DNA of 64,000 nucleotides, from the NCBI GenBank assembly GCA_027486585.1, contig JAIXOU010000039.1, forward strand, positions 1-64,000, written 5' to 3'. The translations under genes and the position numbers were made by a program. The notes below the pieces were generated by a model. The model had not been told where the DNA came from. It worked only from the letters and a program-made list of their open reading frames with translations, and made no database searches. Numbering within the stretch: position 1 is the stretch's first letter; the number at the start of each line of letters is the position of its first letter. This DNA comes from Verrucomicrobiaceae bacterium (GTDB taxonomy: Bacteria; Verrucomicrobiota; Verrucomicrobiia; Verrucomicrobiales; Verrucomicrobiaceae). Of this stretch, positions 42,197-46,077 are shown one piece after another.

Positions 42197-42955
42197 ATGA
42201 AACGTGACACATCCTTTGGCAGAAAAAGTGGGATCGCTCTGGTGCTCCTGCTTTCACTGACCAGTTGTGTCACATCACCGTTCTACGATCCTGTCCCAAA
42301 GCAGCCTGCGGCACTCAGGCAGCACATCGTAGATCGGATCGCCATGATCGTGACTCTGCCACCCCAGCAGGCGGCTAAGCTCATGCGTCATTCGAGCCTG
42401 AATTCATCCCAACCCGTCTCTGTAAGCACCGCCACGCCTATCGGCCCGAATGGTCTGCTGCTGACGGCGGCACACGGGGTAAAAGGCATGAGTCCAAATG
42501 ATGTCACCCTGGTTTATTATTCCCCGACAAAGCACAATCGCCGAGGCCAAGCACGAGTCCTGTGGAAAGACGAGCGTGCGGATTTAGCGCTCATTCAGGT
42601 CTCATTTCCCACGCCCTCTTATTACTCATGGACACCCCGTGATCGCACGCTGCCAGCCGGCACCCGCGTGATCCACGGCGGACTAGCGACGGGTCCAAAA
42701 GCGCAGGTCGGTCAGCTGCTAGAATCACTGGCAGGCACAGGCCATTTTGCACGTCCTTGGGTTCGGCATAGTCTGCGCCTCCAGCCGGGTGACAGCGGAG
42801 GCCCTCTCCTAGCTACAAGCGGCGAACTCATTGGCATCAATCGTGCGGTAGGGTACGTCGGAGTCATGGATACCAGCTTTTTCACCGAATCCCAAAGCAC
42901 CCGGCCTGATCCGGCAAAAATCAACTCGCTGATCGCGGGGATGTCTGCTCATTGA
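42197..42955 (+). CDS. trypsin-like serine protease lipoprotein
   Basis: A 252-residue exported protease. LVLLLSLTSC is a lipobox (Cys near 24). The chymotrypsin-fold triad is complete: LLLTAAHGV (His), DERADLALIQV (Asp) and LQPGDSGGPLL (Ser). There is no PDZ domain. An unknown helical segment (residues 35-75, QHIVDRIAMIVTLPPQQAAKLMRH) precedes the catalytic domain. It heads a row of four envelope genes (small lipoprotein, HtrA, pseudo-HtrA), suggesting periplasmic protein quality control or processing; this grouping is inference. It starts 15 bases after pfkA. Confidence 0.85.
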   Translation: MKRDTSFGRKSGIALVLLLSLTSCVTSPFYDPVPKQPAALRQHIVDRIAMIVTLPPQQAAKLMRHSSLNSSQPVSVSTATPIGPNGLLLTAAHGVKGMSPNDVTLVYYSPTKHNRRGQARVLWKDERADLALIQVSFPTPSYYSWTPRDRTLPAGTRVIHGGLATGPKAQVGQLLESLAGTGHFARPWVRHSLRLQPGDSGGPLLATSGELIGINRAVGYVGVMDTSFFTESQSTRPDPAKINSLIAGMSAH

Positions 42956-42966
42956 GAAAACTCGAC

Positions 42967-43398
42967 ATGCATCCCTTCCTCAAAAAATTGCCTCTCCTTC
43001 TAGCGGCCTGGTGGACTCTCACCAGCTGCCAGGTTTCTCAGGACGCCTTTGAGCTAGGGGCCACCCAAGCCAACTCAAATGGCCTCATGTCTGTGCGCTC
43101 GGCACCGCCTACGATTGGCTTCCGCCGCTTGCAGGCATATTCGGGATTGAATCCAGCGATCAAAGTCTTCGTGCAAGCCAAGGGCTATCCTGATTTCATC
43201 ATCGAGCAACGGAAGCTGGGGAAAATGGCCATGGTGTGTTTTTATCCCAAAAAGAATCAAGCCTACATGATCCAGACACTGCTGAATCTTCCTGGAGAGA
43301 CTCAAGTGCTAGGCCCCGAGCCCATTGGTGAAAAAGACAAACGTCTCTTTAAAGCCATTCGCGAGGTGGAAAATGCGGCATCAGCTTATGGGCAGTAG
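42967..43398 (+). CDS. small lipoprotein of unknown function
   Basis: A 143-residue protein counted from the ATG of MHPFLKKLPLLLAAWWTLTSC, whose TLTSC is a lipobox; a TTG at 42952 overlapping the upstream stop is an alternative start. After the Cys there is a spacer, then a compact fold (IKVFVQAKGYPDFIIEQRKLGKMAMVCFYPKKNQAYMIQ...GPEPIGEKDKRLFKAIREVE). I do not recognise the family. Spacing to the protease lipoprotein is 11 bases from ATG, so cotranslation or at least cotranscription is likely. About 150 bases of apparently empty sequence follow before the HtrA gene. Confidence 0.75.
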   Translation: MHPFLKKLPLLLAAWWTLTSCQVSQDAFELGATQANSNGLMSVRSAPPTIGFRRLQAYSGLNPAIKVFVQAKGYPDFIIEQRKLGKMAMVCFYPKKNQAYMIQTLLNLPGETQVLGPEPIGEKDKRLFKAIREVENAASAYGQ

Positions 43399-43547: not shown

Positions 43548-44519
43548 ATGCGCTTCATTCTTCCCGCGATTCTTCTCAGTATCTGCTGCCAAGCAGAGAT
43601 TGCAGAGAATCCATCGGCACGGACGACGATCGCGGATCTACTAAAAACCCAACAAACCGTGCAATCGCAGCTACCGCGAGTGCGGCCAGCCGTCGTCGCC
43701 ATTCAGACGAATGATGGCACGGCCAGTGGAGTCATCATTTCTGAAGATGGCCTGATCCTCACCGCTGCTCATGTGGCGGAGAAGCCGGGTCGCCAAATGC
43801 GTGTCATTTTGCAGGATGGGAAGCGCGTGATCGCCACCACACTAGGACTGGATAAATCTGCCGATGCCGCCCTGATGCAGCTCAATGACAACGACCTCAA
43901 ATGGCCCTGCGTCAAAGTGAGTCGCGAAGTCCTGAAAACAAAGTCAGGGCAATGGTGCTTCGCCCTCGGACACCCAGGTGGATTTGATCAGGAACGCGGC
44001 GTGGTTTTACGTGTCGGGAAAATCGTCAAGCAAACCGCCAACTCTCTGCAAAGCGACTGCGTGCTGATGGGCGGAGATTCCGGCGGCCCCCTCTTTAATC
44101 TCGAAGGTGAAGTCATCGGCATTCACAGCCAAATCTGGGAGGAGCGGGATCAAAACATGCATGTCTCCATGGCACCTTTTTTCCGCTCATGGGATGATTT
44201 AAAAAGCAGCCAAATCATCCACGTCTGGGGCACTGGCAGTGGCGGCTATTTAGGTGTCGAAATTGGCTCTGAAAAAGATGCGGCAGTCATCAAAGTGAAT
44301 CGAGTGGACAAAGGCAGCGCCGCTGAACGTGCTGGTCTTCAGCTAGGAGACATCATCCTCAGCCTAGACGGCGAGTCGATGCAATCAGCGGCCCAGTTTT
44401 TGAATGCCGTGCGCGCCCGAGCTGCGGGCACTCAAATTCAAATCCAAGTCCAGCGCTCCGGTAATCAGATCGACCTGAAAGCCATGCTCGGTAGCTTACC
44501 CAAGGAGGATGCTGCATGA
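43548..44519 (+). CDS. HtrA-like serine protease with one PDZ domain
   Basis: A 323-residue secreted protease. Signal peptide MRFILPAILLSICCQAEI. The S1C domain (residues about 35-215) has the complete triad: GLILTAAHVA (His), KSADAALMQL (Asp), LMGGDSGGPLFNLEGEVIGIH (Ser). A single PDZ follows (about 230-310: GYLGVEIGSEKD...VDKGSAAERAGLQLGDIILSLDGESM). Layout matches DegS/DegQ-type quality-control proteases with one PDZ. Its last codons overlap the next gene by four bases (ATGA, 44516-44519), so the active and inactive paralogues are translationally coupled. Confidence 0.92.
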   Translation: MRFILPAILLSICCQAEIAENPSARTTIADLLKTQQTVQSQLPRVRPAVVAIQTNDGTASGVIISEDGLILTAAHVAEKPGRQMRVILQDGKRVIATTLGLDKSADAALMQLNDNDLKWPCVKVSREVLKTKSGQWCFALGHPGGFDQERGVVLRVGKIVKQTANSLQSDCVLMGGDSGGPLFNLEGEVIGIHSQIWEERDQNMHVSMAPFFRSWDDLKSSQIIHVWGTGSGGYLGVEIGSEKDAAVIKVNRVDKGSAAERAGLQLGDIILSLDGESMQSAAQFLNAVRARAAGTQIQIQVQRSGNQIDLKAMLGSLPKEDAA

Positions 44520-45541
44520 GCTGGCGAATCACCCTTTTGATGTGTGCTACATTAAGTTCGGCAAAGGCTGATTTACGCGCTCCTCTATCTGCTTCGGAGC
44601 GCACCAACGGTGCCCAAACGCTGACTGCTGTTGCAGCGCTCGAGAAGCGAATTCAGATCATGACTGCTCCTGTGATCGATGCAGAGGGTCTTACTCTCAG
44701 CACTGCATCCTGGGTCGGTTCAGAAGGATACTTCCTCACCAAAGCCAGCGACACCCCGAAACTAGAAGCGTGTAAAGTCCTCATCAGTCCCAGTGTCACT
44801 GTTGCTATTCGTGAGATCCATCGCTCAGCCGCTCATGATCTCGTTTTAGCTCAGGCGGTGGGTGTCAGCGGACTGCCCACACTTACCTTTGAATCCAAAG
44901 CGCGCCCCACTCGCTATGGCCAGTGGCTAGCGGCACCCGTTAAAGGTGGCAAAGCCGTGCGTATCGGTGTTATCAGTGCCCAGCGTCGAAAGATCCCTGG
45001 CGGTGGTGCCGCCATGGGCGTGCGCATGGATGAAAAAACCAACAGCAAAGGCGTGCGTATCGCTGGAATCGCCGAGGACAGCCCTGCGGCAGCCGCGGGT
45101 CTCTTGGAAGACGATGTTCTGCTTTCTCTGGATGGACACACACTCAATTCCTATCAAAGTGTGCACGACCTCGTCCGTGATCGCCAGCCCGGTGAGCAGA
45201 TCGAGATCATCTATCGCCGTTCAGGAAAGGTGGCCAAAGTGCAAATCCGTTTGGCCAGCCGCAGCAAGATCCTGCAAAATTGGGAAGGCGAAGATTTTGC
45301 CAACGGTGGCATCTCCATCCGCACGGACAACTTTGCTCAAGTCATCCAGCACGATCTTCCTCTTTCTGCCCAGGACATGGGTAGCCCCTTATTTGATCTT
45401 GAAGGCCACCTGCTCGGCATCAACATCGCCCGCGTCGATCGCATCACCACCTTTGCCCTTCCGGTAGAAACCTTCTGGCCAACCTTCCTTCCCTACCTCG
45501 AAGCCGACCGCCACCCGCCCAAGGCGGCAAAGGCTAACTGA
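44516..45541 (+). CDS. inactive HtrA paralogue with PDZ nested inside the protease fold
   Basis: A 341-residue exported protein (signal peptide ITLLMCATLSSAKA). It aligns by eye with the upstream HtrA but the catalytic residues are changed: LTAAHVA becomes LTKASDT (His to Ser), the Asp segment SAAHDLVLAQ is kept, and GGDSGGPLFNLEG becomes AQDMGSPLFDLEG (Ser to Met). The PDZ domain (residues about 168-250: MGVRMDEKT...AEDSPAAAAGLLEDDVLLSLDGHTL) lies between the GVISAQRR strand and the FAQVIQHDLPLSAQDMGSPLF strand, so it is inserted within the chymotrypsin fold rather than following it. A chaperone, adaptor or inhibitor partner of the coupled active HtrA is a reasonable inference. Confidence 0.85.
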   Translation: MSWRITLLMCATLSSAKADLRAPLSASERTNGAQTLTAVAALEKRIQIMTAPVIDAEGLTLSTASWVGSEGYFLTKASDTPKLEACKVLISPSVTVAIREIHRSAAHDLVLAQAVGVSGLPTLTFESKARPTRYGQWLAAPVKGGKAVRIGVISAQRRKIPGGGAAMGVRMDEKTNSKGVRIAGIAEDSPAAAAGLLEDDVLLSLDGHTLNSYQSVHDLVRDRQPGEQIEIIYRRSGKVAKVQIRLASRSKILQNWEGEDFANGGISIRTDNFAQVIQHDLPLSAQDMGSPLFDLEGHLLGINIARVDRITTFALPVETFWPTFLPYLEADRHPPKAAKAN

Positions 45542-45633: not shown

Positions 45634-46077
45634 ATGAATAAAATCCTCAAATTCCTGTCATTCATTTTTCTGTTTTCAGTGCAAGCCTATGCGGGCGGTA
45701 AATCCGGCTAGGATGACAATTATGAAAAGGCTTTGCTTGAAGCCAAAGAAACCAAAAAGCTGGTCTTGCTTGATTTTACGGGTTCGGACTGGTGTGGCTG
45801 GTGCGTGAAGCTTGATGAAGAAGTGTTTTCAAAGTCTGACTTCAAGAAGTTTGCCAAGGAGAACCTCGTGCTCGTTGAGCTCGACTTTCCGCATGGAAAA
45901 AGATTGCAAAAGAAGACCAAGGAACAAAATGAAGCTCTCAAAACCAAATTCGCTGTGAGCGGTTTCCCAAACATCATCATCGTAGATAGCGAAGGCAAAG
46001 AACAGGCTCGTTGGAGCGGTTACAGCAAAGATTTTCTGACTGAATTAAAGGCAAAGCTAAGTTCCCTGAAGCAATAG
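45634..46077 (+). pseudogene. thioredoxin-like exported protein interrupted by an amber codon
   Basis: From the ATG at 45634 the frame encodes a signal peptide (MNKILKFLSFIFLFSVQAYA) and GGKSG, then TAG (45709-45711), then continues in the same frame with DDNYEKALLEAKETKKLVLLDFTGSDWCGWCVKLDEEVF to a normal stop at 46077. The downstream part is a thioredoxin fold with WCGWC and the cis-Pro region SGFPNIIIVD. In related exported thioredoxins the residue after GG.xG is commonly Trp, so TGG to TAG is the simplest change. The rest of the frame is intact, so the mutation is recent, a sequencing error, or suppressed. A TTG at 45733 could only give a form without signal peptide. Confidence 0.8.

Follow-up and report, generated by a model that had tools for sequence, protein, structure and literature searches.

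Gene organization at the locus

The window analysed here is a stretch of 64,000 nucleotides from a Verrucomicrobiaceae bacterium. On its forward strand it contains two adjacent genes for HtrA-related proteins. The upstream gene (43548–44519) encodes an active HtrA-type serine protease with a trypsin-like domain and a C-terminal PDZ domain, the downstream gene (44516–45541) a 341 aa pseudoprotease with an embedded PDZ domain. Both N-termini resemble signal peptides, which was read from the sequence without a predictor. The genes share the four bases ATGA (44516–44519, + strand). These are the last four bases of the active gene and contain the start of the second ORF; the four-base overlap reported in the initial annotation was thus found. 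A Shine-Dalgarno-like AGGAGG (44503–44508, + strand) lies in the 3'-terminal part of the upstream gene. The ORF at 44516–45541 (+ strand) is genuine.

Directly upstream, another pair of genes (42197–42955 and 42952–43398) overlaps by 4 nt. It encodes a trypsin-like lipoprotein-type protease with an intact-looking triad and a 148 aa lipoprotein-like protein, and it was seen in the closest relatives only. The gene at 45634–46077 codes for a thioredoxin-like secreted protein and carries an in-frame TAG just past the signal-peptide region, where the relative L008 is intact. This TAG could be a genuine nonsense mutation or an assembly error.

The active partner

In the active partner, the triad is intact (H75, D106, S178), and all three residues are retained in 91 of 91 partner domains. 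Pfam assigns Trypsin_2 to aa 59–192 and PDZ_2 to aa 233–311. Against the model for Do family serine endopeptidases, TIGR02037, the protein reaches 150.5 bits at a curated cut-off of 416; by this score it is HtrA-like and falls outside the subfamily cut-off. The PDZ domain is absent from the active protein in L087, L097, L098 and L099 as well as in the fusions L137 and L138 (see below), which had escaped the initial annotation; Pfam agrees in the cases of L087, L097 and L137. A cysteine, C171 (44058–44060), stands shortly before the catalytic Ser loop and is found in 88 of 91 partners.

Loss of the catalytic residues

The downstream protein had been annotated as a catalytically dead HtrA paralogue in which His and Ser are replaced (LTKASDT, QDMGSPL). 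Alignment with the partner supports both replacements: LTKAS aligns with LTAAH, which places Ser78 at the His position, and AQDMGSPL aligns with GGDSGGPL, which places Met288 at the Ser position. On the + strand, K76-A77-S78-D79 (44741–44752; family consensus KASE) replaces the catalytic His motif and Q286-D-M288-G-S-P (45371–45388) the motif GDSGGP, while Asp108 (44837–44839) is retained according to the alignment with partner and family. The same holds for the family as a whole. In a set of 95 distinct pseudoprotease domains, Ser stands at the His position in 90, Thr in three, Glu in two and His in none; the Asp is kept in 90. The Ser position is non-Ser in 93, with Met in 61, Cys in 12 and Val, Ala, Ile or others in further members; one domain has an S without GG context and one is unresolved. 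The oxyanion glycine preceding the Asp is mostly replaced. With the His lost in every member, the His-Asp-Ser triad of HtrA (S1C) is absent from the pseudoprotease family, and the annotation as catalytically dead is supported.

The substitute for the His motif shows conservation of its own: the Ser is flanked by Lys in 89 and by Glu or Asp in 89 of the 95 domains. In codon comparisons of close pairs, dN/dS amounts to 0.05–0.10 for the pseudoprotease and 0.03–0.12 for the active partner, and to 0.07–0.09 in each of three pseudoprotease segments. These values and the conserved pattern indicate a maintained pseudoenzyme instead of a decaying gene and rule out a pseudogene. We regard it as almost certain that the window protein is a pseudoenzyme.

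An alternative nucleophile was considered, either a Lys76/Ser78 dyad or the Cys that one sub-family has in place of the Ser. It was set aside, as the catalytic His is absent and the oxyanion Gly replaced. Second, paralogous pairs from further families of the Verrucomicrobiales (L130–L149) form another sub-family, in which the lost Ser is often replaced by Cys (CGGPL) and the His is absent.

A PDZ domain within loop L3 of the protease fold

Four consecutive segments can be delimited on the + strand. The first part of the protease fold (aa 50–160, 44663–44995) is defined by model strands and a profile match. It is followed by the PDZ domain (aa 163–250, 45002–45265), assigned by Pfam, model and profile alignment, and by a strongly conserved return segment around NWEGEDFANGGISIRTDNF (aa 254–273, 45275–45334). 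The second part of the fold, which includes Gln278 (aa 271–332, 45326–45511), rests on model, superposition and alignment.

Pfam detects PDZ_2 at aa 166–246 and the second portion of Trypsin_2 at aa 257–302. In the profile alignment to a DegP-like chain, positions 58–162 match residues 94–201 and positions 274–328 match residues 205–264, with the PDZ domain between them as an insertion. It falls between DegP-like residues 201 and 205, i.e. in loop L3 right after SAKGR. When the PDZ domain is cut out, the remainder aligns colinearly with the protease domain of the partner (181 columns, E 7e-22), a better match than that of the uncut sequence (E 1e-17). An AlphaFold model built from 25 homologues (pLDDT 79.5, pTM 0.70) contains strands 273–279, 291–294, 299–306 and 312–316 and helix 317–330 after the PDZ domain. 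Superposition of model residues 37–331 with VIA-align yielded Z 22.1 for the protease domain of AlgW (186 residues, rmsd 2.4 A) and Z 21.1 for that of MamO. By AlphaFold and VIA-align, the pseudoprotease has the HtrA-related chymotrypsin-like two-barrel fold, and the C-terminal ~70 residues are predicted to complete it. The model thus does not bear out one of the two refuting conditions of the initial annotation, a C-terminus that leaves the fold incomplete. The pseudoprotease does not show the HtrA (S1C) order with the PDZ after the protease domain, since here the PDZ lies within the fold.

Because Pfam boundaries, profile alignment and AlphaFold model agree, the PDZ domain can be considered embedded in the protease fold, between two of its strands as initially annotated. 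That the insertion site is loop L3, as inferred from the alignment, goes beyond this annotation. By contrast, the term paralogue is justified at the level of the HtrA superfamily only: the protease parts of the two proteins are ~22% identical, which reflects a deep divergence. The architecture is not a product of chance, as it is common, together with the lost His, to all 95 distinct members, and close pairs show the dN/dS of 0.05–0.10 mentioned above.

Distribution, linkage and natural fusions

When a single protein served as query, 206 of 288 Verrucomicrobiales genomes yielded relatives. Profile searches for both partners (E 1e-40) covered 276 genomes of the order. The pseudoprotease was detected in 197 and the active partner also in 197: both in 194, the pseudoprotease alone in three, the partner alone in three and neither in 76, i.e. 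presence and absence agree in 270 of 276 genomes. The pseudoprotease-only cases are a contig start (G153) and fragments (G087, G179), and the partner-only genomes (G055, G144, G223) are all 62–81% complete. Genomes with neither gene include several small-genome members of genus g12, other members of which hold two copies of the pair. Related genomes are non-independent data points for such counts.

In 82 of 87 distinct fetched loci, the partner is located directly upstream on the same strand, and at one further locus (L016) it is masked by a read-through ORF. Three of the remaining loci are cut by contig ends, and in L075 (genome G025) the genes lie on different contigs, both retained. Of the 84 testable loci, 83 thus have the active gene immediately upstream. 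The same 4-nt overlap occurs at 35 junctions. At eight loci, both proteins form a single polypeptide, in the order active-dead in L084, L132, L137, L138, L139, L141 and L148 and dead-active in L136. The fusions appear at about four places on the pseudoprotease tree, in which support is weak for some nodes. Beyond the order, a single family from another class (G362, G494) provided the only full-length matches. No plasmid copies were found. The pair is old, which the initial annotation had not recognized; its other refuting condition, a pair that is not conserved, is contradicted by the 194 genomes with both partners and the eight natural fusions.

A gene for aminopeptidase P (M24) is located directly downstream in L013, L060, L062, L063, L064, L069, L071 and L081, which belong to several families. 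It is the only neighbour gene that recurs downstream, and these eight loci are too weak a basis for a pathway assignment.

Taken together, co-inheritance, gene adjacency, fusions, the loss of the His beside an intact partner triad and similar purifying selection make it very likely that the pseudoprotease is a functional partner of the adjacent HtrA. A physical complex of the two proteins is inferred from the fusions and the strict co-inheritance and appears probable, but co-loss could also follow, without any contact between the proteins, if the operon was lost as a whole. The stoichiometric partnership, originally deduced from the gene overlap, is well supported by genomics, while the complex itself is an inference.

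Conserved residues in loop L3 and the PDZ domain

In DegS, the signal is transmitted from the PDZ domain to loop L3, whose Arg178 contacts loop LD' of the neighbouring subunit (PMC11642142, a review). Arg158 of the pseudoprotease (44987–44989, + strand) aligns with this L3 sensor Arg (DegS R178, DegP R187) and is invariant in 95 of 95 domains. Gln278, kept in 93 of 95, aligns with DegS Q191 of the HtrA activation cluster. Both rank among the most conserved columns of the pseudoprotease, whose LD region shows no such constancy. The active partner, by contrast, maintains the LD loop as G-H-P/S-G-G-aromatic-D, and the activation-cluster Gln is present in only 46 of 91 partners. The idea that the active partner lacks an L3 sensor residue was rejected, since R or K is found there in 89 of 91. 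The pattern fits a split into a putative donor, the dead protein, and an acceptor, the active one; fold-related conservation is not excluded.

The embedded PDZ domain retains a carboxylate-loop pattern M/L/I-G-V/I and the invariant Asp200 in nearly all members. Unlike the PDZ of the active partner, it is never missing, and where the partner has none, it is the sole PDZ domain of the system. The return segment aa 254–273 is nearly invariant in the genus and has in part pLDDT <50 in the monomer model. In a hetero-oligomer, it would be a candidate contact region.

Comparison with known systems

Among the closest known systems is the magnetosome protein MamO of magnetotactic bacteria. It is an HtrA-fold pseudoprotease encoded with the active HtrA MamE, whose proteolysis requires it non-catalytically (PMC4794232). 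The window pair resembles it in that an HtrA-fold pseudoprotease is encoded beside an active HtrA, and the protease domain of MamO is structurally close. However, MamO has a metal-binding role, is confined to magnetosome genes and lost its activity independently. Moreover, it possesses a C-terminal TauE-like membrane transporter domain. Pfam finds none in the 341 aa window protein, which ends shortly past the helix closing the protease fold. The NCBIfam model for MamO (cut-off 800 bits) did not match the window protein at E 0.01. In plant Deg7, active and degenerate HtrA protease domains are joined in one chain and the degenerate one mediates trimerisation (PMC3473262). Such a single polypeptide is absent from the window, where the genes are separate, but occurs at the eight fusion loci. 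Deg7 differs in being eukaryotic and in having tandem PDZ domains, none of which is reported to be inserted into a protease domain. An embedded PDZ is reported for neither MamO nor plant Deg7.

DegS, DegP and DegQ (S1C) share the fold, the PDZ type and the L3 Arg and Gln of the activation cluster, but they are homo-oligomers with an intact triad and a PDZ after the protease domain. For Prc, CtpA and CtpB (S41), a PDZ that is inserted in the protease and regulates it has been reported (PMC6686036). In contrast to the pseudoprotease, they have an unrelated fold and are catalytically active. The 'uncommon protease' of V. cholerae (PMC3575494) and SpoIVB (PMC6581720) were discarded as precedents, because the consulted passages do not show an embedded PDZ. 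No description of the present family was found in the searched literature, which left subscription papers mostly uncovered.

Proposed function and alternative explanations

The position of the PDZ domain in L3, its constant retention and the conservation of R158 and Q278 suggest a regulatory reading. We consider it rather probable that the pseudoprotease serves a two-part HtrA protease as its regulatory subunit, without catalysis of its own and probably in the periplasm. Dead and active subunits would form a stoichiometric hetero-oligomer, by inference similar to the HtrA trimer. With less certainty, the embedded PDZ may bind peptides or misfolded protein tails and thereby directly move L3, and L3 of the dead subunit (Arg158/Gln278) may act on the LD, L1 and L2 loops of the neighbouring active subunit. 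This trans step is modelled on DegS, where L3 of one subunit acts on LD' of the next. That PDZ and L3 control the active site in trans is a hypothesis that falls somewhat short of even odds. The complete formulation is more doubtful still: an obligate heteromeric HtrA in which catalysis and peptide sensing are split, the dead subunit, with the PDZ inside its own L3 relay loop, acts in trans as the switch for the neighbouring active site, and evolution has separated the between-subunit step of allostery. The active partner has a basic L3 residue and usually its own PDZ and may be self-sufficient. Furthermore, the conservation of R158 and Q278 could reflect needs of the fold.

Two alternatives also assume cooperation with the protease. 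The dead fold might serve merely as an oligomerisation scaffold that builds a trimer or cage, with the PDZ just tethering substrate. Deg7 provides a precedent for trimerisation by a degenerate domain (PMC3473262), and the natural active-dead fusions look like it. A scaffold would, however, leave both the placement of the PDZ in L3 beside an invariant sensor Arg and its strict retention unexplained and is considered unlikely. Alternatively, a substrate-delivery adaptor would bind particular protein tails via the PDZ and pass them to the active protease without allostery. The conserved carboxylate loop with Asp200 and the lack of a PDZ in some active partners would suit this idea, yet an adaptor would have no need of an entire protease fold, and the PDZ position in L3 is again not accounted for. 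We view it as quite unlikely.

Some pseudoenzymes act as inhibitors or buffers of active relatives. Accordingly, the dead protein could restrain the active HtrA within mixed oligomers and free it only upon a signal, and the gene overlap suggests co-expression. This is very improbable: release by dissociation is impossible in single-chain fusions, and the active gene was seen without the dead one only in incomplete genomes. Barely plausible is an independent non-protease function such as metal binding, with operon linkage as a mere relic of history. It is the metal-binding pseudoprotease domain of MamO (PMC4794232), a close structural match (Z 21), that speaks for it, whereas co-inheritance and fusions point to a joint role. 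A MamO-like metal-binding di-His is unsupported, since the family alignment has no invariant His pair and H279 is present in 76 of 95 domains.

Significance

HtrA proteases are homo-oligomers in which every subunit both senses and cuts, so that signalling in cis and in trans is hard to tell apart. If the proposed regulatory role of the pseudoprotease is true, a natural pair of a sense-only and a cutting subunit would open the trans relay, from PDZ via L3 to the neighbour's LD loop, to direct testing. Irrespective of the mechanism, the pair appears to be a standard, hitherto undescribed component of the cell envelope throughout a bacterial order, gut species probably among its members.
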